Source: Colwellia sp. RSH04 (GTDB lineage Bacteria; Pseudomonadota; Gammaproteobacteria; Enterobacterales; Alteromonadaceae). Taken from it: a stretch of 64,000 nucleotides of DNA. This document shows, piece by piece, positions 1,613 through 17,287 of the stretch; within the stretch, counting starts at the first letter, position 1; every line of letters begins with the position of its first letter. The translations under genes were made by a program, and so were the position numbers. The stretch spans positions 124,001-188,000 of the forward strand of contig NZ_QXIO01000002.1 in the NCBI RefSeq assembly GCF_003545765.1, in the 5' to 3' direction. The notes beneath the pieces are model-generated. The model did not search any database, was not told the origin of the DNA, and worked only from the letters and a program-made list of their open reading frames with translations.

Positions 1613-1888
1613 ATGATCAAGCTTCCCAGCGAGTTAACCATTGCTCAAGTTGACTCATACCAACCTCAAATCATTTCAGAAATTGATGATAATACGGTTA
1701 TCACCATTGATGACAGTGAACTGACAAGAATTGATACTATTGGTGTGCAGTTTATTCTTGCTGTAGTGACTTATATTATTGCACAAGGTAAAGAGATTAA
1801 GTGGCAATCTACCTCTTCCATATTAAGAGAAAGCATCAACCAACTTGGAATAAATGATGCAATTTTGATGCAATACTTATCGGATTAA
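1613..1888 (+). CDS. STAS-domain protein, first gene of chemosensory cluster
   Basis: 91 residues, a lone STAS domain (anti-sigma-factor-antagonist/MlaB-like fold). At the site where classic antagonists have DSSG it reads RIDTIGVQ, so the phosphorylatable serine is replaced by threonine or the protein is not phosphorylated. It sits directly before cheY and cheA. Small STAS proteins at the head of che operons of this type are common; the role is not established and I infer only that it belongs to the signalling complex. Preceded by GGATGG about 4 bases before the ATG. Confidence 0.8.
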   Translation: MIKLPSELTIAQVDSYQPQIISEIDDNTVITIDDSELTRIDTIGVQFILAVVTYIIAQGKEIKWQSTSSILRESINQLGINDAILMQYLSD

Positions 1889-1940: not shown

Positions 1941-2303
1941 ATGACAAAGGTGTTAGTTGTAGATGATTCCAACTCAATTAGAGACATGGTGAGTTTTACA
2001 CTTAAAAGTGCAGGTTATCAAACTACTGAAGCTAAAGATGGACAAGAAGGATTAGTAAAAGCAAAAGGTGGTAATTTCGATTTAGTTATTTCTGATGTCA
2101 ATATGCCGAACATGGATGGCATAACTCTCTGTACAGAATTGAGAAAACTTGCAAATTTTAAATTTACACCAATTCTTATGCTTACCACAGAAAGCTCTAC
2201 CGATATGAAAATGAAAGGGAAAGCTGCTGGTGCCACTGGCTGGTTAGTCAAGCCTTTTAATCCAGAGAAACTTTTAGCTACAATTAAGCGTGTAGTACGT
2301 TAA
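1941..2303 (+). CDS. cheY: CheY-type single-domain response regulator
   Basis: 120 residues, only a receiver domain: acidic pair DD8-9, phospho-acceptor Asp52 (ISDVNMPNMDG), Thr in MLTTES and Lys in LVKPFNP. No output domain. As the CheY of this cluster it would be phosphorylated by the CheA directly downstream. A good ribosome site (gaggaag) precedes the ATG. In related accessory chemosensory systems the CheY often does not control the flagellar motor, and nothing here shows which output it has. Confidence 0.92.
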   Translation: MTKVLVVDDSNSIRDMVSFTLKSAGYQTTEAKDGQEGLVKAKGGNFDLVISDVNMPNMDGITLCTELRKLANFKFTPILMLTTESSTDMKMKGKAAGATGWLVKPFNPEKLLATIKRVVR

Positions 2304-2321: not shown

Positions 2322-4424
2322 ATGACTGTTGATTTATCACAATTTATACCTAGCTTTTTAGAAGAGAGCTTTGAAGGCCTAGAGTTAATGGAATCAGGCT
2401 TGTTAAATCTTCAAGCGGGGGATAGTGAATTAATTCACTCTATTTTTCGTGCAGCGCATTCGATTAAAGGTGGTGCAGGTACATTTGGTTTTGAAAATGT
2501 GACCGATTTCACCCATTTAGTAGAAACTTTATTGGATGAAATGCGCGATGGCCGTCGTGAAATTACCAATGATGATACTGAAATTTTATTAGAATCTGTT
2601 GATTGCATACGCTTGCTAATAGAAGCAGCTCGCGATGGTGATGAATATGATAGCGATAAAATTGAGCAAACGTCTGATAGACTAACAATAGCCTTAGAAA
2701 AAAAGCCAACAACTGATAATAATGATTCTTTTAAAGAAGAAAAATGTACTAAAGAAAAGCATTATATCATTAATTTTGTTCCTGAATTAAGTTTAGCAAA
2801 AACGGGGAATGACCCTATATTTTTATTATCTGCTCTTGCTGAACTTGGCACGTTAACAGTAAAGGCTGACTCATCTACGCTACCTGCATTAAATGATATA
2901 GACCCACTTGAACTCTATCTCAGCTGGCAATTAAGGCTGATAAGTGATGCAAGTATCGAAGATATTGAAGAAATTTTTGAATGGGTTGAAGATGAGTGTG
3001 AGTTAGATATTACAATAGATGAAGCCAATCAACCTGAAAAAAATCCTGAACAAACAACACTAAATAAAAATCATGAATCAGAAGAACCTTTAAAGCAAAA
3101 TAATGATGAAGAGACTCAGGTTATAACGCCAGAACCGAAAATAGAAGTAGTTAAAGAAAACTCACCAATAACAGCCAAACCTAAAGCTAAATCAGATGTT
3201 GGTTCAATACGAGTTGGCGTTGATAAGGTAGATAGCTTAATTAATTTAGTGGGTGAGTTAGTCATAACACAATCAATGCTTTCAGAGTTAGGTAGTGATT
3301 TTGATTTGTCTAAACTAGACCGTTTAACTAATGGGCTAGAACAATTATTGCAAAACACAAAAGAGTTACAAGAAAGTGTAATGCGTATTCGAATGCTCCC
3401 TATAAGTTTTGCATTCAATCGCTTTCCTCGTTTAGTTCACGATTTAGCAATTAAAACAGGTAAGGAAATGGAGCTCATTATTAAAGGTGAGCAAACAGAG
3501 CTAGATAAAACTGTTATGGAACAGATAGGTGATCCACTTGTTCACCTCATTAGAAATGCAGTTGATCATGGAATTGAACCAAGCGAAATTAGACTCGCTA
3601 ACGGTAAATCTAAGAAAGGTATTATTTCTCTTGATGCTTATCACCAAGGTGGAAATATTGTTATCGAAATATCAGATGATGGTAGTGGAATCAATAGAGA
3701 TAACGTATTTAACAAGGCTGTTGAGAAAGGGCTGATAGATGCTAATGCGACTCTTTCTGATAGCCAAGTCTATGATTTGTTATTTGAACCTGGTTTTTCT
3801 ACCGCTCAAGAAGTTACAGATATTTCTGGTAGGGGTGTTGGCATGGATGTTGTGAAAAGAAATATCCAAGCTCTTGGAGGGAGAATTCAAGTTGACTCAA
3901 CACCAGGTCAGGGCAGTAATTTCAAAGTCAATTTACCATTAACATTAGCGATACTTGATGGTCAGTTAGTAAAAGTTGGAACAGAAACATACATCATTCC
4001 TTTGATATCTATTGTTGAGTCTTTACAAATTGAAAAAGAATTTTTGAATCGAGTCTCTGGTGACATGGATTTATATAGGTTAAGAGAAGATAACGTCCCA
4101 ATTTTACCGGTATTTCAACTATTTAATATAGATGCGCAATGCAATGAACTTGATAACGCGTTACTGGTTGTGGTTGAAGCAGATGGTCAAAAAGTAGGTT
4201 TAATGGTTGATGATTTATTAGCTCAACAACAAGTTGTTATAAAAAGCTTAAAAGATAATTATCAACAAGTGCTAGGGATTTCAGGAGCCACTATCTTAGG
4301 TGATGGCTCGGTAGCAATGATTTTAGACATACCCGGCATGATTCAAATGGCCCTTGAAAAAGCACAACGTTCCCAGCATCAGAAATACCCTAATCAAATA
4401 GAGAAAGTCGGAGGGTATAATTAA
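2322..4424 (+). CDS. cheA: CheA chemotaxis histidine kinase
   Basis: 700 residues, complete domain set. The Hpt domain (about 1-105) has His46 in AAHSIKGGAGTFGF; then a linker with a second folded part (about 145-235) and a charged, low-complexity stretch (240-295); the dimerisation domain (about 295-355); the ATPase with N box (HLIRNAVDHGIEP), DDGSGIN and GRGVGMDVV (about 360-535); and a C-terminal CheW-like P5 domain (about 545-685). Autophosphorylates on His46 and passes phosphate to CheY and CheB. Starts 18 bases after cheY; its stop overlaps the next start by one base. Confidence 0.96.
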   Translation: MTVDLSQFIPSFLEESFEGLELMESGLLNLQAGDSELIHSIFRAAHSIKGGAGTFGFENVTDFTHLVETLLDEMRDGRREITNDDTEILLESVDCIRLLIEAARDGDEYDSDKIEQTSDRLTIALEKKPTTDNNDSFKEEKCTKEKHYIINFVPELSLAKTGNDPIFLLSALAELGTLTVKADSSTLPALNDIDPLELYLSWQLRLISDASIEDIEEIFEWVEDECELDITIDEANQPEKNPEQTTLNKNHESEEPLKQNNDEETQVITPEPKIEVVKENSPITAKPKAKSDVGSIRVGVDKVDSLINLVGELVITQSMLSELGSDFDLSKLDRLTNGLEQLLQNTKELQESVMRIRMLPISFAFNRFPRLVHDLAIKTGKEMELIIKGEQTELDKTVMEQIGDPLVHLIRNAVDHGIEPSEIRLANGKSKKGIISLDAYHQGGNIVIEISDDGSGINRDNVFNKAVEKGLIDANATLSDSQVYDLLFEPGFSTAQEVTDISGRGVGMDVVKRNIQALGGRIQVDSTPGQGSNFKVNLPLTLAILDGQLVKVGTETYIIPLISIVESLQIEKEFLNRVSGDMDLYRLREDNVPILPVFQLFNIDAQCNELDNALLVVVEADGQKVGLMVDDLLAQQQVVIKSLKDNYQQVLGISGATILGDGSVAMILDIPGMIQMALEKAQRSQHQKYPNQIEKVGGYN

Positions 4425-4957
4425 TGAATATACAAGCCATGGCAAATGAGATACCTGTTGAGGGTGAGCATTCAATTGAAGGTATCGATTTTATTACTAG
4501 TGCTGATCAATACCTGACTTTTACATTAGCTCATGAGCAATATGCGGTAGACATTCTTTGTGTAGAAGAAATTAGAAGCTGGGAAAGACCAACAATTATT
4601 CCTAATTCACCTTCTTATATTCAAGGTGTTATCAATATGCGTGGTGTTATTGTGCCTATTATCGATCTTCGATTGAAATTTTCAATTGGTGAAGCATCTT
4701 ATACTGAAACGACAGTCGTGATTGTTTTAACTTACCAAGCAGAAAGCTCTTCGAGGACAATGGGCTTTGTCGTAGATGCTGTTTCAGATGTATTAAATGT
4801 AGAGTCTGGAGATATTAAACCTGCACCTCATTTTGGTGGGTGTGTCCCACCACAGTATATTGAAGGGCTAATAAATGCTGATTCTAAAGTGGTCACGTTA
4901 TTAAACGTAGCTAATTTACAGCTATTAGAGAAAGACGACAACCATGCATCAATATAA
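4424..4957 (+). CDS. cheW: CheW coupling protein 1
   Basis: 177 residues, one CheW domain (about 27-165) after a short N-terminal extension. It has the family core INMRGVIVPIIDLRLKF and FVVDAVSDVL. CheW bridges receptor tips to the P5 domain of CheA. The ATG overlaps the cheA stop (TAATG), so translation is probably coupled. A second cheW follows immediately; the two differ over most of their length, so this is an old duplication and the two may hold different positions in the array. Confidence 0.94.
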   Translation: MNIQAMANEIPVEGEHSIEGIDFITSADQYLTFTLAHEQYAVDILCVEEIRSWERPTIIPNSPSYIQGVINMRGVIVPIIDLRLKFSIGEASYTETTVVIVLTYQAESSSRTMGFVVDAVSDVLNVESGDIKPAPHFGGCVPPQYIEGLINADSKVVTLLNVANLQLLEKDDNHASI

Positions 4958-4978
4958 TACTTAGTAATGGGAAATATC

Positions 4979-5491
4979 ATGATAGATAGCGAACAAGAGT
5001 ATTTAACATTTTTGCTTCAAGGTGAAGAATACGGTATTGATATTCTTTGTGTACAAGAAATTAGAGTATGGAGCTCTATCACTGAGCTACCCAACAAGCC
5101 TGATTATATCAAGGGAGTTATAAACTTACGCGGAGTTATCATTCCTATCATTGATTTAAGGTTACGGTTTGGTCAAGAGGCGCTTGAGTATAACGATCAA
5201 ACAGTTACTATTATTTTAAAACAAACTAATGCACATAGAACAATGGTTGTTGGTTTGGTTGTTGATGCAGTCTCAGAAGTATACAAATTTACTCATCAAT
5301 CTATTAGGCCGGCGCCTGCTTTTGGTAACAACATAGATAGTTGTTTTTTAAAGGGCTTAGCAAGTGTAGAGGAAAAACTCATTATTCTGTTAGATAGTGA
5401 CACTTTGCTGAACGAAGATGATCTTTATTGTATAGAGCACTCCTCAGTTGATGAAAGTCAAACTGAAGCAGTAGAACAAACCATAATGTAA
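4979..5491 (+). CDS. cheW: CheW coupling protein 2
   Basis: 170 residues, one CheW domain with INLRGVIIPIIDLRLRF and LVVDAVSEVYKF. I chose the ATG at 4979 because a GGGA lies 7 bases before it; the in-frame ATG at 4967 has no ribosome site. It partners CheA and the receptor, as for the first cheW. Paired cheW genes are typical of this operon type. Confidence 0.93.
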   Translation: MIDSEQEYLTFLLQGEEYGIDILCVQEIRVWSSITELPNKPDYIKGVINLRGVIIPIIDLRLRFGQEALEYNDQTVTIILKQTNAHRTMVVGLVVDAVSEVYKFTHQSIRPAPAFGNNIDSCFLKGLASVEEKLIILLDSDTLLNEDDLYCIEHSSVDESQTEAVEQTIM

Positions 5492-5545: not shown

Positions 5546-7954
5546 ATGACTCCAAAGCAAATAAGCTTAGTGCAAGAAAGTTGGATAAAAGTTCTCCCAA
5601 TAGCTCCTAAGGCAGCGGAAATATTTTATCAAACATTATTTGAAATGGACCCCGCCTTAACTTCACTTTTTCCTGAAGATTTAACTGAGCAGGGTAAGAA
5701 ACTTATGTCGATGCTCGACACAGCGGTAAAATTGCTAAATGATCCAAATAAGTTAATTCCAGCCGTTGAAAAGTTAGGTATAAAGCACCTTGAATATGGC
5801 ACGAAAGAAGAACATTACGCTACTGTAGGTGCTGCATTAATAAAGACTCTAACTGTGGGCTTGGGTGATGAGTTTACTCCGTCTGTTAAACGAGCTTGGA
5901 CAGCTGTTTATAAAACGTTATCAACAACGATGATAACTGCTGCCAATAATTCTGCTAGAGAGAATAAGCAATCTAACAAAAGTAACAAGAAAGGTGCAAT
6001 GATGAACAATAAAACTAAGGAAGGAAATGATTTAGCTGTACGTTTGCAAGGCGCTTTAGATCAATCTATGACAGCATTTATGATGATAGACAGGAATTTT
6101 ACTATCACATATTTTAATAAAGCCACACTTGATTTACTGAAGAAGCATGAAGAAACGTTTGTTAAAAAGTGGCCAAGCTTTAAAGCTGATGCAGACTCTA
6201 TGATGGGCATTAATATAGATATGTTCCATAAGAACCCTGAGCATCAACGCAAGCTATTATCAGATCCTGCTAATTTACCATTTACTACCGATATAAAAAT
6301 ATTGCATTTGACGATAGAGCTAAATGTTACTGCGATAATGGATTTAAACGGGGAATATATCGGAAACTCTTTAGAGTGGTCAGACGTAACAGAAATAAGA
6401 TCTAAATCTTTAGAAGTAGGCCGTTTAACCTCAGCGGTTGAAGGAATGACAACTAATTTAATGATGGCCGATACCCAAGGTAACATCGTGTATGCTAACC
6501 CTGCGGTATTAAATATGTTACGTAGAAGAGAAGAGCGACTTCGTACCGCTCTACCATCATTTAGTGTTGACAAAGTCATAGGGACAAATTTTGACTCTTT
6601 TCATAAGAACCCTGCACATCAACAAAATTTACTAGGAAATCCTGATAATCTTCCATACTCAGCTGAAATTAATGTCGTAGGACTCACCTTTCAACTCATT
6701 GCAATCCCTTTAAGAGATGATAAAGGGAATCATGTAGGAAATGCAGTGCAATGGTTAGATCTTACTGAAGAGAAAGATGCGCAAAAACAAATTGAAAATT
6801 TAATCACAGATGCTATTTCAGGCAAATTAGATAGTCGTATTGATACAGAAAACTATGAAGGCTTTATGAATGTTTTAGGGACTAACATTAATAATTTGAT
6901 GGATGCTATCGTTGAACCGATTAATGATGCAATTAATATAGCTCAGGCACTTGCTGATGGCGATCTAACTCAGTCAATGAATGATAACTATGGGGGGGAA
7001 TTTTTAGCACTAGCTAATGCTATGAATGGCTCTATAGAAAATTTAACTAATATGGTTGGGGAAATACGAGGGGCTTCTACTAACGTTTTTGATTCAGCGC
7101 GTGAAATTGCTGAAGGAAATAACGAATTAAGTCACAGAACAGAATCGCAAGCATCTAGCCTTGAAGAAACAGCTTCTGCTATGGAAGAGATAACTAGCAC
7201 TGTTCAGCAAAATGCTGAAAATGCAACTGAAGCGAGTAAATTGTCTGACTCTGTAATGGACAAAGCGACTAACGGTGGCTCTGTAGTTAGAAATGCTATT
7301 ACAGCGATGAGTGATATTAATAAATCGAGTAAGAAAATAGCAGATATTATCAGTGTTATTGATGAAATAGCCTTCCAAACAAACCTATTAGCACTTAATG
7401 CAGCGGTAGAGGCGGCAAGGGCAGGCGAACAAGGTCGAGGTTTTGCCGTTGTTGCAGCTGAAGTGAGAAACCTTGCTCAACGTTCTGCTGGTGCAGCTAA
7501 AGAAATTAAAGGGTTAATTAATGACAGCGTTGAAGCGGTTGGACAAGGAACAAAACTAGTTGATGAAACAGGACAAACATTTAGCGAGTTAGTAACGTCT
7601 ATAGAAGAAGTTAGTAAAATGATTTCAGATATAGACAGTGCAGGTAAAGAGCAATCAGCAGGTATTAGAGAGGTAAGTGCTGCGGTTAGTCAAATGGATG
7701 AAATGACACAACAAAATGCCGCATTAGTTGAAGAAGCAGCAGCATCAAGTAAGTCAATGGAAGAGCAGTCGCAAGCATTATTAGAACAAGTCGCTTTTTT
7801 AAATACTGGTGAAGAAGAACAAAAACCAGTTATTCGTTCACCAAGACAAAATTCTAATAAACGTACATCAAAATTTAGTCCCGCAGTGCCTTCATTAAGT
7901 AGTAAAGCTAAAAGACCGGTAACCCCTGTTGATCAAGAATGGGAAGAGTTTTAG
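5546..7954 (+). CDS. soluble methyl-accepting receptor: globin-PAS-PAS-HAMP-MCP
   Basis: 802 residues, no membrane segment. Residues 1-140 are a Vitreoscilla/flavohaemoglobin-type globin: Tyr28 (B10), Phe42 (CD1), Gln49 (E7) and proximal His81 in GIKHLEYG. Two PAS domains follow (about 165-285 and 293-408), each with FHKNP.H and, exactly 50 residues later, a Trp before the closing acidic motif (His228/Trp278; His353/Trp403), the pattern of Aer2-type haem PAS domains. HAMP-like helices run about 410-505, then the signalling tip (about 600-650, [22 protein letters not shown]). The C-terminus is EWEEF, a CheR-tethering pentapeptide like the GWEEF of Pseudomonas Aer2/McpB. Inferred role: cytoplasmic O2 or NO receptor feeding CheA. 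Haem binding is predicted, not shown. Confidence 0.9.
5989..6004 (+). promoter_or_regulatory. internal ribosome site and double ATG at the globin/PAS junction
   Basis: Within the receptor gene, in the charged linker after the globin, GAAAGG (AGG at 5992-5994) is followed by in-frame ATGs at 5999 and 6002; the second is 7 bases from the AGG. Translation from here would give a globin-less PAS-PAS-HAMP-MCP protein starting at Met152/153. It may be a working second start or a relic of the gene before fusion. Confidence 0.4.
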
Positions 7955-7963
7955 AGAAGTATT

Positions 7964-8848
7964 ATGTCGATACAACCTCGAGATAATCACTTTAAAGTGG
8001 ATAGAGACAATAAAGCTAAGTTATCAAATAGTGAATTTAGCTTTATATGTCAGTTTGTATATCAAACGACGGGCATTGTATTAAATGAAAGTAAACGTGA
8101 AATGGTATATCGCCGATTTACTCGGATTGTAAGAGAAAAGAAGCTTGCTTCTTTTTCAAAATATTGTCAGTTACTTGAAAGTAATCCAGAGCAAGAAAAA
8201 GATTATTTTATTAATGCAATAACAACCAATTTAACTAGTTTCTTTAGGGAGCAACATCATTTTGATTATTTAATACAAACAGAACTTCCTAATTTGTTGC
8301 AAACCAAAAAAAGGCAAGGAAATGGTAAAAAACGCTTAAGAATATGGTCTTCTGCAAGCTCAACAGGAGAAGAACCCTATAGTATTGCGATGACATTGCA
8401 CAGTATTTTTAAAAATGAGCTTTCAGAATGGGATGCTAAAATTCTAGCAACAGATATAGACAGTAATGTATTAAATAAAGGTAAAAGTGGTATTTATGAT
8501 CAAAAAAGAGTTGAGGACATTCCACAGCACTTTTTAGAAGAATATTTTTATCAAGGTAAAGCTCACAATCTTAATAACGTGAAAGTGACGAGTAATCTTC
8601 AACGTTTAATCACTTTTAAACGGTTGAATTTGTTAAACGAGTGGCCAATGAAAGGACCATTCGATATTATTTTTTGTCGTAATGTCATTATATATTTCGA
8701 CAAAGTGACGCAGCAAGATTTATTCGCTCGTTATTATGATTTATTAGCGCCTGGTGGTTTATTTATACTTGGTCACAGTGAAAACCTCGGTGAGTTTCAA
8801 AAATATTTTGAACATGCAGGCAGAACAATGTTTAGAAAACCTGTTTAA
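7964..8848 (+). CDS. cheR: CheR receptor methyltransferase
   Basis: 294 residues. N-terminal helical domain (about 25-90) and a SAM-binding domain with SSASSTGEEPYSIAM, ILATDIDSNVL and IIFCRNVIIYFD. It methylates receptor glutamates using S-adenosylmethionine. The upstream receptor ends in EWEEF, so tethered methylation is likely. Starts 9 bases after the receptor stop. Confidence 0.95.
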   Translation: MSIQPRDNHFKVDRDNKAKLSNSEFSFICQFVYQTTGIVLNESKREMVYRRFTRIVREKKLASFSKYCQLLESNPEQEKDYFINAITTNLTSFFREQHHFDYLIQTELPNLLQTKKRQGNGKKRLRIWSSASSTGEEPYSIAMTLHSIFKNELSEWDAKILATDIDSNVLNKGKSGIYDQKRVEDIPQHFLEEYFYQGKAHNLNNVKVTSNLQRLITFKRLNLLNEWPMKGPFDIIFCRNVIIYFDKVTQQDLFARYYDLLAPGGLFILGHSENLGEFQKYFEHAGRTMFRKPV

Positions 8849-8870
8849 AACATTAATCATAGAGGTGTAT

Positions 8871-9530
8871 GTGCGTCGAAATGATCATCCTGAAGTAGAA
8901 CAATCTAGATTATCTTGTTTGCCTGAGTTTAGTAATATTAATCATTACTGGGATAAGCAAAGAGACATGGTTGTCGCTAAAATATTACCTGGAGAATTTT
9001 ATTCAACCTCAGATAATATTGCGATATCAACGACATTAGGCTCATGTATCTCTGCATGTGTTTGGGATAATAAAACTTTTATTGGCGGCATGAATCACTT
9101 TATGTTGCCGATCACTAATAAAGAAGCCCATGAAATAAACTGGGGCAGTCGTGAAAAAATGAGTGATGCAACTCGCTATGGAAATTTTGCCATGGAGCAT
9201 TTAATAAATACTATTTTAAAATTGGGTGGAAGAAAAATTAACCTAAAAGCAAAGTTGTTTGGCGGTGCAAAGGTGCTAAATAATATGACCGATGTAGGAC
9301 AGCGTAACATTGACTTTGCCATACATTATTTGGCGCAAGAAAACATCCCTGTAGAAAGTTGTGATATTGGTGATATTTACCCAAGAAAAGTGATTTTTGA
9401 ACCTAGCAGTGGTAGAGCTTTTGTAAAAAGGCTTGATAACCTACATAACGATACAATTTCTAAACGTGAATATAATTATCGTAGCCAGATAGAACAAGAA
9501 CAAGTTGATGGCGATGTAGAGCTGTTTTAA
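8871..9530 (+). CDS. cheD: CheD receptor glutamine deamidase
   Basis: 219 residues from a GTG at 8871, chosen because GAGG lies 5 bases before it. The open frame reaches back to 8754 inside cheR, but that part is out-of-frame cheR sequence. Catalytic Cys sits in TTLGSCISACVWD and His in GGMNHFMLP; KLFGGAKVL and the GDIYPRKVIFEPSSGRA segment are also family hallmarks. CheD deamidates receptor glutamines. The protein has extensions at both ends compared with the minimal (~160 residue) family, and it ends GDVELF, a tail shared with two other proteins of this cluster. Confidence 0.92.
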   Translation: MRRNDHPEVEQSRLSCLPEFSNINHYWDKQRDMVVAKILPGEFYSTSDNIAISTTLGSCISACVWDNKTFIGGMNHFMLPITNKEAHEINWGSREKMSDATRYGNFAMEHLINTILKLGGRKINLKAKLFGGAKVLNNMTDVGQRNIDFAIHYLAQENIPVESCDIGDIYPRKVIFEPSSGRAFVKRLDNLHNDTISKREYNYRSQIEQEQVDGDVELF

Positions 9531-9581: not shown

Positions 9582-10676
9582 ATGGCGTTAATAAAAGTTT
9601 TAGTAGTAGACGATTCTGCTGTCATTAGAAGTATTGTTATAGAGTCTCTAAAGCAGGCATGTAATATTGAAGTGGTTGGGGAAGCTGAGGATCCTTTAGA
9701 AGCGAGAGAGCTCATTAAAAAACTTAATCCTGATGTGATTACTTTAGATGTGGAAATGCCTAAAATGGACGGTATTACTTTTTTAAAGAATTTAATGCGC
9801 CTCAGACCAATGCCAGTTGTCATGCTTTCTACATTAACAACTAAAGGGGCTGATATCACATTACAAGCATTAGAGCTTGGTGCGGTAGATTTTATTGCAA
9901 AACCAAGTGTGAAAGAGCTCATTGCAACTCAAGCTAATTTTCAAGACTTATTAATTGAAAAGATTCGTGAAGCTGTCTCAGTCGATCAACGTAATTTTAA
10001 GTTGATTGATGTGGTTGGAAAAAATAAACCTGATAAGCCCAAAAAAATAAATACCTTCAAAGGAATAGAGCGCTCCAATCACTTAATTGCTATTGGGGCT
10101 TCAACAGGTGGTACTGATGCCATTAAGAAAATATTGACTAGGTTGCCTAGTAACAGCCCGCCAATCGTTATCACACAGCACATTCCAAAATCATTTAGTT
10201 TACGGTTCGCCGAGCGATTAAATAGTCAGTGTGATGTTGAAGTTAAAGAAGCAAGCCATGGGCAAAAAATAAAACCAGGCCATGTTTATATAGCACCAGG
10301 TGATAAACATCTTGAGGTTGTCAATAAAAATGGTTCTTTGTTTACAACATTAACCGATGGAAATGAAGTGAATAGGCATAAACCTTCTGTTGATGTCTTA
10401 TTCGATTCTTTAGTGGAGCTAGCAGACAATGTTCAAGCAGTTTTATTAACAGGTATGGGCCAAGATGGCGCGCATAGCATGCTTAGGTTAAAAGAACATG
10501 GGGCAAGAACAATTATTCAAGATAAATTTACGAGCTTGATATGGGGGATGCCAGGCCGAGCTTTTAACTTAAATGCTCATAGTCTTGAAGCTCCTTTAGA
10601 TGATATTCCCAATTTATTACTTGATTATGCTCAACTATCTAAGAATGAAATGAAGGAGGAACTTAATGAGTCTTAA
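9582..10676 (+). CDS. cheB: CheB receptor methylesterase/glutaminase response regulator
   Basis: 364 residues. Receiver domain with Asp56 ([11 protein letters not shown]) and Lys in FIAKPS, a linker, then the esterase domain with catalytic Ser in GASTGG, His in TQHIP and Asp in GMGQDGA. It removes receptor methyl groups and is activated by CheA phosphorylation, opposing CheR. The last 11 bases overlap the next gene, whose ribosome site (AAGGAGG) lies inside cheB. Confidence 0.96.
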
Positions 10677-11853
10677 ACGATATGTACTAGGTTCATCTTT
10701 AATATTGATCACGTTGTTAGTACTAAACCAATTAGTATTCCATAGTGCTTATTTATTTTTTATAGTCATTATATTGCTAATATCTTGCACTATTTATCAA
10801 TTTCAAATGGCAGTGAAAACTGATTTATCTCAAGAAGTTGATGAATTTGGTCAACATATTCCTGATGTCGATAATGAATTAATACACAAGGTTATCTTTG
10901 AGTTACAGCAATTTCTGCAACAAGAAGTACTTGTCATTGAAGCTGAGTTAAAAAGAACAAAGTCTTTAATTGAAGAAGCGATTATTGGTATGTCAGATAG
11001 TTTTAAGGAGATGCAGCAATTAACAGATGAACAGCAGATAATGATTGTTCAATTAATAGAAAATAGTCATAGCTTTGCTGGTGGTGAAGGGACTTTAGAA
11101 GATTTTGTAAAAGATTCAGATAAAACACTGGATGATTTTGTTAGTGTTATAGTTGAAACTAGTAAACAAAGCCTTGAAACAATGGGCTATACCGACCAAA
11201 TGGTGGAACGGTTTGATGGTATCTTCAATATTTTATCTCAAGTTGAAAGCTTATCTTCGCAAACAAACCTATTAGCATTAAATGCTGCTATTGAAGCTGC
11301 AAGAGCTGGAGATGCTGGGCGCGGATTCGCTGTAGTCGCTAATGAGGTTAGATCACTCTCTGTCGATTCAACAGAACTCAACCAAGAAATAAGAAATGAA
11401 ATAAATCAAGCAAAAGAAACCATTTCTAATCTTCGCGAGTCAGTTGAAATAATGGCCTCTGCTGACATGACATCAACTTTGGAAGCGAAAGATAAAATGT
11501 CTGTAATGATGAAACATGTCGACAGTTTAAACCAGTATACAAACTCAAGTGTTGATAAATTGAGTAATCTATCACCTAAATTGACTAATGCTGTTGCAAC
11601 TGGTGTTCGTTCATTGCAATTTGAAGATATGACTCGACAATCGTTACATTCTCTTGAATTAAATGTGGAAAGTATATTGTCTATCAGTCAAGTGTTAGCA
11701 GATTTTAAAAATATACCCAGTGCTGAGGTACATCATCAATTGCTTAATTTAAAAAATAAATGCCAAGCTGTATATAAAGAGACAAATAAAGCTGAAAGTC
11801 AACGTAGTGTTAAGCAATTAAATATGGATGAAGGAGACATTGAGCTTTTTTAG
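10666..11853 (+). CDS. membrane-anchored receptor-like protein with CheZ-like motif
   Basis: 395 residues. Two closely spaced hydrophobic helices (about 8-28 and 29-46) form an N-terminal hairpin with almost no external loop, so there is no sensing domain. A long helical region contains the receptor signalling tip (about 195-232, [20 protein letters not shown]). Near the C-terminus, LQFEDMTRQ (Asp321, Gln325) resembles the CheZ active site FQDLTGQ, in which Asp and Gln also lie four apart. The protein ends GDIELF after an acidic linker, comparable in placement to the CheY-binding tail of CheZ. It could be an array scaffold, a CheY-P phosphatase, or both. Excellent ribosome site (AAGGAGG); overlaps cheB by 11 bases. 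Confidence 0.8.
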
Positions 11854-11889: not shown

Positions 11890-12195
11890 ATGACAGTAAA
11901 ATCAACTGTAAAAACCGAAGAAAATAAAGTAATTATTTCTGTAGATGATCGATTTGATTTTTCATTACATCAACAGTTTAGGGATTCCTATAGTGAAATA
12001 AATAACAAAGGGCAAGAATATATTTTAGATCTAAGCAATACAAAATATATGGATAGCTCGGCATTAGGTATGATCCTGTTGCTTAAAGATCATGTTGAAA
12101 TGAATGCGAGTACTTTAACAATTAGCAACCCTAGTGATACAGTAAGTAAAATATTAGAAATAGCACAATTTCATCGTTTAATGACAATTAAGTAA
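11890..12195 (+). CDS. STAS anti-sigma-factor-antagonist-like protein (HsbA/CrsA type)
   Basis: 101 residues, a single STAS domain with the conserved phosphorylation segment YMDSSALGM, so unlike the STAS protein at the head of the cluster it keeps the serine. Preceded by a ribosome site (AGGGAG). It is followed at once by a REC-PP2C-ATPase protein, the pairing seen in HsbR-HsbA of Pseudomonas and CrsR-CrsA of Shewanella, in which the STAS protein is phosphorylated and dephosphorylated to switch partners such as FlgM or an anti-sigma factor. That role is inferred from context. Confidence 0.88.
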   Translation: MTVKSTVKTEENKVIISVDDRFDFSLHQQFRDSYSEINNKGQEYILDLSNTKYMDSSALGMILLLKDHVEMNASTLTISNPSDTVSKILEIAQFHRLMTIK

Positions 12196-12209: not shown

Positions 12210-13931
12210 ATGTTTTCTATTGAAAGGCTTGCTCTGATTGTTGATGATTCTAAGACTCAATGCTTAGTATTATCTAAGCTATTAGAAGAAGAGAATTATA
12301 CTGTTATAGTAGCCAATGATGGCGCAAGTGGTGTTCAAAAATATATTAAGCACAAACCTGACTTAGTGTTAATGGATATTAACATGCCGATTATGAATGG
12401 ATTTGAAGCAGCGAGGCAAATAAAAAACCTCTCAGGTACTAATGATCTCGCACCATTAATTTTTATTACCAGTATGAATACTGATCAAGCATATATTGAT
12501 AGCGTTGATTCAGGCGGTGATGGTATTTTAGTAAGACCATTTTCTCCCGCTGTGTTCAAAGCAAAAATAAAATCCATACAACGAATTAGTAATTTATATC
12601 AGCAAGTCAAGTCATTACAACAAGAGCAGCAGCAAGATGCTGAGCTTGCAGAAAAAATGATGTCGGAAGTGATTGAATCTAGAAACTATGCGCTAGATAG
12701 AGTACAAGTCATTAAAAAACCAGCTACAATTTTTAGTGGTGATATTCAGTTAACTGCCTTATGTCCTAATGGTGATATCCATGTGTTACTAGGAGACTTT
12801 ACTGGCCATGGTCTGCGCTCATCAATTGGCGCTATCCCTGTTACTGAAACATTTAGAGCAATGACAAAGAAGGGTTTTTCTGTCATTGATATTATCGCTC
12901 AACTTAATAAGCAACTTAATCAATTATTACCCGCTGACTTATTTTTTGCTGCTGGTATTGTCTGTATATCTGAACATGAAAAATCAGCATATATTTTTAA
13001 TGCTGGCTTACCTGATGGTTACCTTTTTAATAATAAAGGCAAGATAAAGAAACAATTTGAATCAACACATCCTCCTTTAGGTATTTTGCCTGATTTACTT
13101 CCTGACGCAAAAGTAGAGTTAATTAATATTGATTTGTCGGATCACGTTGTCTTTATTTCTGACGGAATAATTGAGGCGAGAAATGAGCAAGGAGAACTTT
13201 TTGGTGTAGAAAGATTTGAGCATGCAGCAACGGAAGGAATAGCTGAAAACAATCTAGTAAGTAATGTAGAACAGTATTTAGCAACGTTTTGTCGGGGAGT
13301 TCCACAAGAAGATGACATTTCACTTGTCGCTGCCCCTTGTAATAATTGGCTTAAGAAAGTTGTGAGCAATAGGGCGTCTATACCCGAGGAAATATATCAA
13401 GAAGAGTTTAATGATAAATCAATACCAGCTTGGTCTTGGCAATTGAAACTTTCAGGAAAACTTCTAAAAAACGTTAATCCTATACCAATGATAATGAATC
13501 AAATTAATGATATAGAGGGTGCAGGTGAACATTGGCATAGTTTGTACACAATATTAACAGAGCTATTTGTAAATTCACTTGATCATGGTGTATTAGGATT
13601 AAGTTCTTCCTTAAAACAATCAGCAGAAGGGTTTAGTCAGTTTTTTCATGAAAAAGCTCATCGGTTAGAAAAGCTGGATTCTGGTTATGTAATGATTTCA
13701 TTAAAGTATTTTCCTTTTACGGGTGGGGGAAGGATGGAAATCAACATTAAAGACAGTGGTAAAGGGTTTGATATCAAACAGGTAATGCAAAAGAATCAGA
13801 GTAAATCCATGGATTCTGGTGCGTTAAGTGGTCGAGGTATTGAATTAGTGAAGCAGTTATGTGACTCCTTAACATTTGTTGAAGACGGAACCTCTGTTAT
13901 TGCAAACTTTGTATGGCAAATTAATCAGTAA
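12210..13931 (+). CDS. REC-PP2C phosphatase-ATPase partner-switching regulator (HsbR/CrsR type)
   Basis: 573 residues in three modules. The receiver (about 5-125) has phospho-acceptor Asp56 in LMDINMP, but the usual Lys-Pro is Arg-Pro (ILVRPFSP), an uncommon change. The PP2C/SpoIIE phosphatase (about 165-385) has GDFTGHG, FISDGI and EDDIS metal-binding aspartates. The C-terminal GHKL ATPase (about 430-570) has N box ELFVNSLDHG, DSGKGFD and SGRGIELV, as in RsbW-type serine kinases. One protein therefore has both the kinase and the phosphatase for the upstream STAS protein, with the receiver choosing between them. No DNA-binding domain. Confidence 0.9.
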   Translation: MFSIERLALIVDDSKTQCLVLSKLLEEENYTVIVANDGASGVQKYIKHKPDLVLMDINMPIMNGFEAARQIKNLSGTNDLAPLIFITSMNTDQAYIDSVDSGGDGILVRPFSPAVFKAKIKSIQRISNLYQQVKSLQQEQQQDAELAEKMMSEVIESRNYALDRVQVIKKPATIFSGDIQLTALCPNGDIHVLLGDFTGHGLRSSIGAIPVTETFRAMTKKGFSVIDIIAQLNKQLNQLLPADLFFAAGIVCISEHEKSAYIFNAGLPDGYLFNNKGKIKKQFESTHPPLGILPDLLPDAKVELINIDLSDHVVFISDGIIEARNEQGELFGVERFEHAATEGIAENNLVSNVEQYLATFCRGVPQEDDISLVAAPCNNWLKKVVSNRASIPEEIYQEEFNDKSIPAWSWQLKLSGKLLKNVNPIPMIMNQINDIEGAGEHWHSLYTILTELFVNSLDHGVLGLSSSLKQSAEGFSQFFHEKAHRLEKLDSGYVMISLKYFPFTGGGRMEINIKDSGKGFDIKQVMQKNQSKSMDSGALSGRGIELVKQLCDSLTFVEDGTSVIANFVWQINQ

Positions 13932-13949: not shown

Positions 13950-15116
13950 ATGAGAAAACATAATATTTTAATCATTGATGACAATATAGATTACTTAAAG
14001 TTATTAGCGGAAAGTTTGGAAGATATTTTTGATGTAAAATGCGCAAGTAACATAAACGTTGCGAATGACTTACTACAAGAGAATGTGCATTTTGATATTG
14101 CGCTTGTCGACGAAAATATAGGGAGTGATAAGGGCTCTGATTGGATAAGAACTCATCATGGCTCTCAAAGAGCGCCAACCTCTTTTGTACTTTATTCAGG
14201 CCTTGCAACTGAAGAAGCTATTTTAAAAGGGTTAGAATGCGGTGCGGATGATTTCTTAGCTAAGCCTATCTCACTACTTGCTCTTCATTCAAAATTAGAA
14301 AAACTCATTGATTATCAAGATAAAATCCATGATTTTGAGCATGAAATAAAGTCCAAAGAAAATGTCATCAACATATCAATGGCGCAGGCTTCAAAGTATG
14401 GTAGCTGTATGCAGCTAACTTCAAAGTTGAATAATTGCTTTTCCATTGAACAAATTCGTGATGAAGTCTTTTCTTATTTGTACTCAACCGGTCTACATGG
14501 CTGTATTTCCTTTTATCCATTAAACGAAAAACCAAAATTTTTTAGTGCCCAAAAAGGCTTATGTTCGCCTGTAGAAATAGAAGTGATGGAACTTCTAAAA
14601 GTCAAACCTAGGTTATATCGTTTCGGTAGTAGGACAATTTTCAATCACGCATTGGTATCTCTTTTAATATTAAATTTAGAGGACGGTAATGTAGACACAG
14701 ATATATACGTTGATGCTTTAGCGTCAGTGATTGAATGTATAGGTGCTAGAATGGCGTTTATCACTTACAAAAACTCCTTGGTAAATGTTCAAGAACAAAT
14801 TAAACAAGCGGTACACACTACCAAAAAAATGTTGCAAATTTCAAAACACCACCAACAAGAAGTCATGAATGAAATAGTACAAAATATAGGAACAAGTTTC
14901 CACATTCTTGATATGAGCGAAAAACAAGAAGATTATTTAACTAACCTAGTTCATACAGCACTGAAGAAACATAGCCAAGACGATATAAACTTTTTGGAAG
15001 TGACACAATTATTAGATCAAGCATTAGTCAGTGTTGACCAACTCCAATCTTTAAGTATTGAACAAAAAGCAGTTATTACTGACGATACTTTTGACGACGA
15101 GGATGAATTGTTTTGA
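13950..15116 (+). CDS. response regulator with unrecognised C-terminal region
   Basis: 388 residues. N-terminal receiver (about 4-125): Asp pair 10-11, phospho-acceptor Asp54 (ALVDENIGSD) and Lys in FLAKPIS. A coiled-coil-like linker follows, then a region of about 110 residues that might be GAF-like but has no motif I can name, and a helical C-terminal part. No DNA-binding, cyclase or phosphodiesterase motif. It ends in an acidic stretch and ELF, like CheD and the membrane receptor-like protein. The stop overlaps the kinase start that follows, so the two are translationally linked and it may be that kinase's partner. Confidence 0.78.
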   Translation: MRKHNILIIDDNIDYLKLLAESLEDIFDVKCASNINVANDLLQENVHFDIALVDENIGSDKGSDWIRTHHGSQRAPTSFVLYSGLATEEAILKGLECGADDFLAKPISLLALHSKLEKLIDYQDKIHDFEHEIKSKENVINISMAQASKYGSCMQLTSKLNNCFSIEQIRDEVFSYLYSTGLHGCISFYPLNEKPKFFSAQKGLCSPVEIEVMELLKVKPRLYRFGSRTIFNHALVSLLILNLEDGNVDTDIYVDALASVIECIGARMAFITYKNSLVNVQEQIKQAVHTTKKMLQISKHHQQEVMNEIVQNIGTSFHILDMSEKQEDYLTNLVHTALKKHSQDDINFLEVTQLLDQALVSVDQLQSLSIEQKAVITDDTFDDEDELF

Positions 15117-17287
15117 AAACTGAAGCACTAAGTTTTGCCTATAAAGTATTAGAAGCTGTTGATGATGCATATTTTGAATGGCATCCAGCCAAAGATATTA
15201 TCGTTTATTCTGCTAAATTAATGTCAATGCTCGGTTATGAAAATGAGAGTTTCACTGATTCTCCAGCACTATTAGCAAAACACATTGAAGAAGCTGATTT
15301 TCAAGAATTACTTAGTCAACTAAAACAACATCTTAAAGGTATAACCAATAAAATTGATATAACATTACCCATTAAAACTAAGTTTAATAAAGCATTATGG
15401 TTTCATTGTGTTGCAAGAGTGGTTGATAAACAAGATGGCAAAGCCAATTTATTATTTGGTACTGTTCGTGATATCAGTGCAACCAAACAGATGATGCATC
15501 AGCTTAAAAAGCAGAATGATTGGCTAATGTTAACAGAGCGTATCAGTAATGCAGGTCATTGGCGTTACGACATTGAGCAGGAAACTTTAACCTGGTCACA
15601 AGAGATTTTTCGAATTCATAATTTAGTTGTTAATCAATTTACTCCGACCATCGATAAAGCAATAGATTTCTTTATCTCAAAAGATAAAACAAAAATTAAA
15701 GCAATGATGAACAATGCCATTGTTCATCATCAAGCTTTCCATATTAAATCATGCCTAAAATTATCGAATAATGTTAAAAAGAAAATTGAGTTAAATGCTG
15801 AGATTGAAAGAGATGCTGTAGGTAGACCCAAGGCAATTTTTGGCGTTTATAAAGACATTACTCGTAGTGAGAATATGTTTGAGAAATTAAAGTTACTTGC
15901 CATGGTAAATTTTACCATACGAGTACCTATATTTTTCATTGATGACAACGATAATGTTGTATATCAAGATATTTCTCCTCATTACGATGAAAAAAGTTCG
16001 GTGTTATTTAACTATATTAATTTCAGCATTTCTGAATATATGGCGTTTAAAAATCAAGCCAAAGAAGCGGGACAGGTAAAACAGACAAATGTTAGTTTTG
16101 ATAAATACAATTCGGTTTTTGATTTATCTGTTACTTATGAAGCTCAGGAAGGCATATATATTTGGATAGTAGAAAATGTCACCGAAAAATTTAGAAAAGA
16201 GCAACAACAGATCATTTCAAACAGACTTGCTTTATTAGGAAACACGTTTGGTAATGTTTCTCACGATATTAATAATGTATTGGGAGTAGCTCTTGGTGCA
16301 ATTGAAATGTTGGAATTAAAGTTTGCTCGAGGAGAAAAGGATATATCAACCTATATTGATAGAGTAAAAAATGCTATCGATAAAGGTAAGGATGTGACAG
16401 AGCGCTTATTAGCCTTTACTCGAAAGCCGACAGTTAAAGTGGTTACTTTTGATCCTATACAAGAAATATTAGACAACCAATATTTATTCAAGCAGTTACT
16501 ATTAAGTACCATCAATATACAATTTGATTTTAAACCGCTTAATTGCATAATCAACTTTCCGCAAGGCGAGTTTATTAATATATTACTTAACATAGTATTG
16601 AATGCTCAAGATGCAATACAAGAGAAAGGTTTAAGTGGGCAGATTGAAATATCAGCAAATCTAATAGCAGGTAATAAGCTTGAAATTCATGTAAAAGATA
16701 GTGGTGTAGGTATTAAAAGTGAAAACTTAACTAAAATATTTGATCCGTTTTATAGTTCTAAATCGGTAAACAAAGGGAATGGAATTGGTCTTGCTAACGT
16801 TTATAGTACTATGTACAAACATAATGGCCAAATTCAAGTAGAAGGCTCCTGTGAGTTAGGAGGAGCACATTTTACTTTAGTGTTCAAATGTAAAGCGCTT
16901 CACGAACAGTTCCTACCGAAACAAAGCAAAAAAGAATTTTTAAGTTATGAAAATACTAATATTTTAGTTCTTGATGATGAGGTGAGTATAGCGGAATTTG
17001 TTGCTCTTTTTTTAGAAAGCAAAGGAGCAAATGTTGTCGTGGCAAATAACAAAATTGAATTACTCGACAGGCTTAACAAAGATATTAATTTTGACATGTT
17101 TATTACGGACATGATTTTACCGGATTTGTCAGGAAAAGAAGCTGTAAATATAGTCAAAGCACAGTATCCTAACATTAAAGTATTTTCTATCAGTGGTTAT
17201 ATAGCGATAGAAGATAGTAGTTGGGATTATCCCGTTTTGAGAAAACCTTTTAATTCTAAGGAACTCGCTGAATTTTTATCTATATGA
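15113..17287 (+). CDS. cytoplasmic hybrid histidine kinase (PAS-PAS-HisKA-ATPase-REC)
   Basis: 724 residues, no membrane segment. Two PAS domains (about 10-125 and 140-252), a third PAS-like region (about 262-357), a dimerisation helix with His384 in NVSHDINNVLG, the ATPase (about 470-595: N box IVLNAQDAI, DSGVGI, GNGIGLANV), and a C-terminal receiver with Asp666 (ITDMILPDLSG) and Lys in VLRKPF. The start is TTG at 15113, overlapping the previous stop; GAGGA at 15099-15103 is 9 bases upstream and supports it. A free Hpt protein follows, so a His-Asp-His-Asp relay back to a receiver in the cluster is likely. Confidence 0.9.
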   Translation: MKTEALSFAYKVLEAVDDAYFEWHPAKDIIVYSAKLMSMLGYENESFTDSPALLAKHIEEADFQELLSQLKQHLKGITNKIDITLPIKTKFNKALWFHCVARVVDKQDGKANLLFGTVRDISATKQMMHQLKKQNDWLMLTERISNAGHWRYDIEQETLTWSQEIFRIHNLVVNQFTPTIDKAIDFFISKDKTKIKAMMNNAIVHHQAFHIKSCLKLSNNVKKKIELNAEIERDAVGRPKAIFGVYKDITRSENMFEKLKLLAMVNFTIRVPIFFIDDNDNVVYQDISPHYDEKSSVLFNYINFSISEYMAFKNQAKEAGQVKQTNVSFDKYNSVFDLSVTYEAQEGIYIWIVENVTEKFRKEQQQIISNRLALLGNTFGNVSHDINNVLGVALGAIEMLELKFARGEKDISTYIDRVKNAIDKGKDVTERLLAFTRKPTVKVVTFDPIQEILDNQYLFKQLLLSTINIQFDFKPLNCIINFPQGEFINILLNIVLNAQDAIQEKGLSGQIEISANLIAGNKLEIHVKDSGVGIKSENLTKIFDPFYSSKSVNKGNGIGLANVYSTMYKHNGQIQVEGSCELGGAHFTLVFKCKALHEQFLPKQSKKEFLSYENTNILVLDDEVSIAEFVALFLESKGANVVVANNKIELLDRLNKDINFDMFITDMILPDLSGKEAVNIVKAQYPNIKVFSISGYIAIEDSSWDYPVLRKPFNSKELAEFLSI

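Follow-up and report, generated by a model that had tools for sequence, protein, structure and literature searches.

Gene content and organization of the locus

The window, a 64,000-nucleotide stretch of the genome of Colwellia sp. RSH04, carries at 5546–7954 of its forward strand an open reading frame of 802 codons, whose 802-aa product is a soluble receptor with a globin, two Aer2-type haem PAS domains, a HAMP domain, a Tar/Tsr-like MCP tip, and the pentapeptide EWEEF at its C-terminus. Genes for a STAS protein, CheY, CheA, and two CheW proteins lie upstream, followed downstream of the receptor by genes for CheR, CheD, CheB, an McpA-like receptor, a STAS-like protein, and a receiver-PP2C-HATPase protein (Table 1). 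Two features mark the receptor as Aer2-type: PAS domains in which FH..P.H is followed by Trp 49–50 residues further on, and a position within an F7 cluster between CheW and CheR. The gene order is that of stage 1 of the F7 system in the accessible text of Ortega et al. 2020 (PMC7184735), in which the word globin does not occur. The protein is thus the Aer2 receptor belonging to a chemosensory cluster of the "stage-1 F7" kind, at whose end lies a putative CrsA/CrsR-like partner switch.

Table 1. Features of the F7 locus and of the receptor encoded within it (positions are those of the window)
Feature	Position	Strand	Residues and details	Basis
Upstream gene	1613..1888	+		Pfam, cluster gene order
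CheY	1941..2303	+		Pfam, cluster gene order
CheA of F7 system	2322..4424	+		Pfam, cluster gene order, CheA comparison
CheW 1	4424..4957	+		Pfam, cluster gene order
CheW 2	4967..5491	+		Pfam, cluster gene order
Globin domain	5546..5971	+	aa 1–142, core ~3–135	Pfam Globin, PDB matches, residue tables, tree, model
Globin key residues			B10 Tyr28, CD1 Phe42, E7 Gln49, E10 Lys52, F8 His81	
Linker, probably flexible	5969..6046	+	~aa 142–167	pLDDT <50 at 142–167
PAS1	6041..6406	+	aa 166–287; candidate haem ligand His228; Trp278, Leu259	own PAS HMM, alignment
PAS2	6422..6784	+	aa 293–413; candidate haem ligand His353; Trp403, Leu384	6ceq, 3vol, 4hi4
HAMP domain	6881..7045	+	aa 446–500	Pfam HAMP_2, E 4e-11
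MCP signalling domain	7238..7708	+	aa 565–721	Pfam MCPsignal, E 9e-55
EWEEF pentapeptide, C-terminal	7937..7951	+	likely CheR/CheB tether	
CheR	7964..8848	+		Pfam, cluster gene order
CheD	8754..9530	+	true start probably further in	sequence by eye, position
CheB	9582..10676	+		sequence by eye, position
McpA-like receptor	10666..11853	+	N-terminal hydrophobic stretch, KD19 2.5	MCPsignal
STAS-like, CrsA-like anti-sigma factor antagonist	11890..12195	+		sequence by eye, position
CrsR-like response regulator	12210..13931	+	receiver, PP2C phosphatase (SpoIIE), HATPase	Pfam

In Shewanella, CrsA and CrsR hold and release RpoS according to the accessible portions of two papers (PMC9855816, PMC6482189), and the domain order stated for CrsR/HsbR in the literature text at hand is the same as that of the CrsR-like protein in the window. 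The window genome encodes RpoS. On its contig C42, CheZ adjoins a second CheA with 38% identity to the F7 CheA, so that the flagellar motor probably depends on this second system rather than on the F7 system of the window. Beyond the F7 and Crs genes, positions 13950–17287 of the window hold a gene for a 388-aa receiver protein and a 724-aa open reading frame whose sequence resembles that of a PAS-type hybrid histidine kinase with a receiver; relatives of the 388-aa protein were also seen near the cluster in L065, L074, L079, L080, and L091.

For comparison, 40 regions were chosen by hand, comprising 36 in which a long frame starts with a globin-like N-terminus and 4 comparators that lack one; the 37 receptor rows referred to below are these 36 globin-bearing loci plus the window and do not form an unbiased sample. 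The order CheY-CheA-CheW-CheW-receptor-CheR-CheD-CheB was found in 35 of the 36 globin-bearing loci, L092 being cut by a contig end, with a CrsA-like gene in 34/36 and a CrsR-like gene in 33/36.

Domain architecture of the receptor

A profile search, one of the checks proposed in an earlier note made from the sequence alone, found a Pfam Globin match at aa 27–129 (E 8.5e-14, 52.5 bits versus a cut-off of 22) and PAS matches covering both PAS regions. Tar/Tsr-class NCBIfam models matched the MCP domain with scores below their own cut-offs; on these matches the signalling tip is a candidate for the 36H class. EWEEF was present in 30 of the 37 receptor rows and near variants in 4, the remaining 3 including L092 and L101, which are cut or masked. 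The maximum Kyte-Doolittle mean over 19 residues was only 1.28, with no transmembrane-like stretch, so that the receptor is soluble by sequence.

The AlphaFold2 (AF2) model of aa 1–440 (mean pLDDT 80, pTM 0.37) showed a globin, a low-confidence segment at 142–167, and two PAS folds; given the pTM of 0.37, the domain folds are usable and the domain arrangement is not. The disorder of the linker in this model is a prediction based on 22 rows. Foldseek matched the PAS folds to the Aer2 structures 3vol, 6ceq, and 4hi4, and the globin to HGbI 3s1i (TM 0.89, target length).

Aer2-type PAS domains

Two PAS domains, each with FHKNP.H and a Trp 50 residues after the first His, had been described from the sequence, and this description held: both pairs, His228/Trp278 and His353/Trp403, stayed unchanged across an alignment of six receptors with two PAS domains each, one row of which has a masked letter (X) in place of the second His of the PAS1 motif. 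The distance of 49 given in the earlier note for Pseudomonas Aer2 was borne out by a hand count in the 3vol alignment, from the first His of FHKNPAH to the Trp; the difference between 50 and 49 is due to a one-residue gap in that alignment. PAS2 matched Vibrio Aer2 6ceq at E 1e-32 and Pseudomonas Aer2 3vol at 5e-27, while the globin matched HGbRL 3wfw at 2e-26 and HGbI 3s1i at 1e-22, and at such values the PAS and globin assignments are not due to chance. Our own PAS HMM, built from sets that include the PAS1 unit of the window, scored PAS1 at 201 bits and PAS2 at 179 bits.

Among the 31 receptors with Aer2-type PAS, the number of these domains ranged from 2 to 7 (two in 7 receptors, three in 14, four in 7, five in 2, and seven in 1). 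The ligand-to-ligand spacing was 127 in 38/38 inner steps and 125 in 30/31 last steps, the exception (252) being a missed motif. The first PAS His lay at 219–230 in 26/31 receptors, a 12-residue range, and at 252–291 in 5/31; with PAS spacing constant and the position of the first ligand variable, the PAS domains are in strict register with one another and the globin less so. In some receptors the inner copies were nearly identical (up to 94% in L064 and 100% in L066), so that the PAS row probably lengthens by tandem duplication. The receptor with seven Aer2-type haem PAS domains, encoded at L064:6065–10378, is 1438 aa long and also has one globin, which makes eight predicted haems; it would to our knowledge be the most haem-rich single-chain chemoreceptor known.

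Five receptor rows (L084–L087 and L091) had no Aer2-type PAS; in the two of them that were scanned, Pfam identified PAS_3 domains, and domains similar to these occur in BdlA. In L093:5666–8381 (G018), an Aer2-like receptor with three PAS motifs, an N-terminal hydrophobic, transmembrane-like segment replaces the globin; one CheW was found in its cluster.

Lineage of the globin

Tyr28, Phe42, Gln49, and the proximal His81, all named in the earlier note, were found and line up with identical residues in HGbI and HGbRL. The globin is of the F-lineage, not of the globin-coupled sensor (GCS) lineage, and its nearest relatives are the Hell's Gate globins HGbRL and HGbI together with standalone single-domain globins. 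It has the marks of the HGbI group, being a 3/3 globin with Tyr B10, Gln E7, and His F8 and a model without a separate D helix. PDB matches beyond these two were weaker: neuroglobin at best 8e-14, Vitreoscilla haemoglobin 1vhb 1.4e-10, and flavohaemoglobin 8e-10. The label "Vitreoscilla-type" accordingly stood as regards the F-lineage and the distance from GCS globins and gave way as regards the closest kin, the better description being F-lineage, HGbI-type; on the PDB matches, with 1vhb at 1.4e-10 versus HGbRL at 2e-26, a specifically Vitreoscilla-type identity was set aside.

In the 73-row globin tree, which comprises neither Vitreoscilla haemoglobin nor L101 (a locus interrupted by a masked stretch, kept out of the PAS counts as well, with its CheA in the CheA tree), 25 intact receptor globins fell on one side of a branch with support 55/50, an unstarred value at which the bootstrap had not settled. 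Five flavohaemoglobins (97/56) and four GCS globins (100/100) formed separate groups, so that the globin did not fall with the GCS globins and the stated difference in class from HemAT-type receptors was confirmed. In the tree that includes the histidine kinase open reading frame L204, receptors, standalone single-domain globins, HGbI, and HGbRL were set apart from the flavohaemoglobins (99/96). The receptor label changed 3 times on the tree with L204 and once after L204 was dropped, and the simplest reading of this weakly supported branching is that the fusion probably took place once. Alignment columns of the flavohaemoglobins near E7 are possibly shifted by three, and no reading was drawn from them.

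Other identities were tried and rejected. The receptor had no match to PF11563 or PF01152 at E 0.01, against a GCS or truncated globin, and the window genome as a whole had no PF11563 (Protoglobin) match at E 0.001 and a single PF00042 match. No FAD/NAD reductase domain follows the globin and the sampled flavohaemoglobins group apart, which rules out a flavohaemoglobin. The protein had been put forward as a triple-haem receptor; three plausible haem sites are indeed present, and haem binding is predicted at each of them.

Distribution among genomes

Among the matches listed, the globin domain was found in 122/295 genomes of the window's family at E 1e-5, a count that includes standalone globins and flavohaemoglobins. 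Traced from matches lying on long frames, globin-headed receptors occurred in at least 38/295 family genomes (28 intact, 10 more eroded), within F7 clusters; the search for the same architecture elsewhere, also suggested at the outset, thus found a recurring form and not a single oddity. Within the genus of the window, again among the matches listed, 8/16 genomes had a receptor-type match, 4 a flavohaemoglobin-type match only, and 4 none. Across the phylum, 123 of 398 genomes matched the globin, and frames longer than 700 aa were confined to the window's own family. Three long frames outside it (656 aa in G554, 304 in G584, and 262 in G573) were rejected as upstream extensions of standalone globins without a PAS or MCP motif; the longest, 656 aa, is a frame artefact.

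In a scan of named genomes, which may omit records very near the window's genome, 28 of the best 80 of 282 relatives were fused to Aer2-type PAS, and these belonged to Colwellia, Litorilituus, Thalassotalea, Thalassomonas, Glaciecola, or MAGs placed only as Alteromonadaceae/Gammaproteobacteria. The other 52 of the best 80, from several phyla, had no PAS motif and no frame longer than 294 aa from the match on. Four of the standalone loci (L158, L167, L171, and L172; 291–294 aa, mostly Aquimarina) appear to be tandems of two HGbI-type globins, and L151, L153, L160, L166, L168, and L178, with an open frame of 141–155 aa upstream, possibly are so too.

Conservation and erosion of the globin pocket

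Tyr28, Phe42, Gln49, Lys52, and His81 were all kept in 26 of the 37 receptor rows. The other 11 were eroded, Gln49 being absent in 11/11, Phe42 in 10/11, and His at column 81 in 6/11, and the globin haem is therefore dispensable in some relatives. The best CheA tree, which gives no direction of gain or loss and carries a long-branch warning for L081, L093, and L098, contained 7 changes of pocket state and 4 for His at column 81; we read these changes as repeated loss, a direction that comes from us and not from the tree. Because the haem pocket, on this reading, has been lost repeatedly among relatives, the role of the globin is directly testable.

The eroded globin domain stayed in frame in 11/11 rows, and since hhalign aligned eroded with intact globins at E 2e-38, the eroded domains are still homologous to them. 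Their match to the intact consensus was 66% in helix A, 34% in B, 30% in C-CE, 20% in E, 16% in F, 31% in G, and 33% in H. A model of the eroded L084 globin retained helices A, B, C, E, G, and H and lost F; its Foldseek matches were globins but weak, none reaching E 0.001. Among six eroded proteins scanned, L082 only passed Pfam Globin, with 23.2 bits.

For intact globins, dN/dS was 0.016 between the window and L062 (dS 1.7, near saturation) and 0.026–0.12 in four other pairs. For eroded globins, dS was finite in four pairs, of which three come from a single trio, and dN/dS there was 0.11–0.47, far above the 0.011–0.016 of the MCP domains of eroded pairs, so that constraint on the eroded globins is relaxed. 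The pairs window–L063 and L088–L089 were left out because of saturated dS. One reading of this pattern is a decaying passenger, an old fusion whose globin has become unnecessary and is disappearing bit by bit. The changes of pocket state, to which the tree gives no direction, and the lack of a receptor-type globin in half of the same-genus genomes (8/16, among the matches listed) favour it, but the intact globins are under low dN/dS (0.016–0.12 where finite) with no pocket change and the domain is in frame in every eroded row; we consider this reading very improbable.

Alternatively, the globin might mainly be a structural or membrane-tethering head of the array, with haem optional. F7 arrays sit at the inner membrane though Aer2 has no transmembrane segment, and the window receptor likewise has no such stretch; the membrane attachment of the V. 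cholerae F7 array is listed as open in the accessible text of PMC7534058. HGb-I, a near relative, binds lipids stoichiometrically with a change of haem ligation, as stated in the accessible part of PMC11203436. A tether would also suit the eroded globins, which keep helix A best, can still be aligned under dN/dS of 0.11–0.47, and in the L084 model lack only helix F. However, the whole pocket, unneeded for tethering, is kept in 26/37 rows, the constraint on eroded globins is relaxed relative to their MCP domains, and helix A is not unusually amphipathic (moment 0.33, aa 1–18), a value not striking enough for an amphipathic membrane anchor, which we rejected as a candidate. We find a tethering head unlikely; by analogy with HGb-I, lipid binding by the window globin may be worth a test and no more.

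The globin may also sense gas in its own right, over a range of its own (O2 or NO), and signal by rearranging the receptor dimer, a mode proposed for HGbRL. For that protein, the accessible text of PMC4476040 describes a movement of helix E and closure of Lys52(E10) on the haem, proposed to signal to the fused domain, and the equivalent of Lys52 is a candidate haem ligand in HGb-I in the available portion of PMC11203436. Lys52 was kept in 26/26 non-eroded receptor rows, in HGbI, and in HGbRL, and also in 14/15 standalone globins. The globin was eroded in 5/5 receptors without Aer2-type PAS, as if pocket and haem PAS shared one purpose, but six other eroded globins stand beside Aer2-type PAS, and co-loss of haem PAS and globin pocket amounts to about three independent same-direction events (sign test p 0.25, not significant). 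The linker is of low predicted order, and the model is nearer to HGbI (TM 0.89) than to site-swapped HGbRL (0.47). An independent input is thus a doubtful reading, though one with a precedent. Genome G130 has two F7 clusters; the receptor of L074 has an intact globin, and that of L085 has an eroded one and lacks Aer2-type PAS.

Proposed mechanism

The reading we prefer, for which we see the case as evenly balanced, is that the protein, an Aer2-type receptor, senses O2 for an RpoS-linked F7 array, its tethered haem globin serving as an accessory gas-binding module. The architecture, the conserved pockets, the gene order, selection on the globin, and the second CheA next to CheZ are observed; haem binding, the gas, the direction of signalling, the output to RpoS, and what the globin does are inferred. 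Its N-terminus would have gained a single-domain HGbI-type globin by gene fusion, probably once, within the Colwellia/Thalassotalea/Glaciecola group. In PAS1 and PAS2, His228 and His353 would be the haem ligands, and Trp278 and Trp403 would take part in O2 binding; we think that the PAS pair is the O2 sensor by analogy with other Aer2 proteins as described in the accessible literature. From the PAS domains the signal would reach HAMP and CheA by way of linkers of fixed length. The globin would bind a third haem through His81, with Tyr28 and Gln49, and Lys52 may close the pocket. Being on an apparently flexible tether, it probably does not drive the PAS domains rigidly, and it may handle O2/NO or compete for gas binding as an accessory module next to the PAS sensors. 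CheA output would go to CheY and, as suggested by gene order and linkage, to the CrsR-CrsA partner switch freeing RpoS, rather than to the flagellar motor. Points against this explanation are the 11/37 eroded pockets, the 8/16 receptor-type matches in the same genus among the matches listed, the fusion support of 55/50, and the placing of the first PAS within a 12-residue range in 26/31 receptors while the disorder of the linker is predicted.

In a bolder version, which we hold to be quite improbable, another globin lineage would have been recruited to chemoreceptors, and this HGbI-type globin would read O2/NO through a Lys52-gated haem and hold the F7 array at the membrane by lipid, coupling gas and membrane state to RpoS release, and several relatives would have kept the tether only after haem loss.

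Across relatives, this one conserved cluster comes with globins that are intact or eroded, with 2 to 7 haem PAS domains, and with exchanged PAS types. The natural series allows one to ask how much each haem contributes to a gas receptor, what attaches F7 arrays to the membrane (a question raised in the accessible text of PMC7534058), and how a chemosensory array feeds RpoS.

Comparison with known systems

The view that a globin on an Aer2-like receptor was undescribed proved too strong. The accessible text of PMC6194562 (2018) lists seven PAS+globin+MCP proteins in 8,075 complete genomes, including proteins of Colwellia sp. MT41 and Glaciecola nitratireducens, which probably belong to the receptor family described here, and HGbRL is already a fused F-lineage globin, termed a "putative globin-coupled sensor" outside the GCS lineage in the available part of PMC4476040. 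The listed proteins (Corallococcus Cc_4972 and six others) share PAS, globin, and MCP in one protein with the window receptor. Cc_4972, that paper's own protein, has a globin named Bac_globin with PF01152 reported, unlike the window protein, which has PF00042 and no PF01152 match at E 0.01; the accessible text contains no Aer2, F7, or haem-residue analysis. We found no characterisation of the globin-headed Aer2 family in the open-access literature, where this list was the one prior mention found. Aer2 receptors and HGbI-type globins are both known kinds, and their combination has been seen once in a list, unanalysed as far as the open-access search reached.

The Aer2 proteins of Vibrio cholerae (VCA1092), V. 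vulnificus, Shewanella oneidensis (SO_2123), and Pseudomonas aeruginosa (McpB) have the same haem PAS His/Trp motif, and those of Vibrio, Shewanella, and Pseudomonas share with the window receptor the HAMP domain, the Tar/Tsr-like tip, and the F7 cluster. A C-terminal pentapeptide is stated for P. aeruginosa McpB/Aer2 in the accessible portion of PMC7390727. In contrast to the window receptor, no globin is described for the Vibrio, Shewanella, and Pseudomonas proteins in the literature text at hand. NCBIfam NF041847, the Vibrio Aer2 equivalog, matched the window receptor from aa 157 to the end with 888 bits, below its cut-off of 1200, which was passed by 7/247 genomes of the order; the model describes the Vibrio form. 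A globin hidden in Vibrio Aer2, considered since the 804-aa model matches from aa 157, was rejected because L098, its best scorer, has three PAS motifs there; the comparators L098–L100, all best or near-best scorers, have short N-terminal tails and three PAS motifs.

HGbRL (Methylacidiphilum), the best PDB match, belongs to the same globin subgroup with Tyr B10, Gln E7, Lys E10, and His F8, but its globin is fused to a Roadblock/LC7 output without PAS or MCP, and its site-swapped fold is not favoured for the window globin (TM 0.47 versus 0.89 to HGbI). The globin-coupled sensors HemAT and Atu1027 likewise carry an N-terminal globin on an MCP output, as far as the accessible descriptions go, but belong to the GCS/protoglobin lineage, whose rows formed the separate 100/100 group in our tree. 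With this receptor family, a globin on a chemoreceptor no longer implies the GCS lineage.
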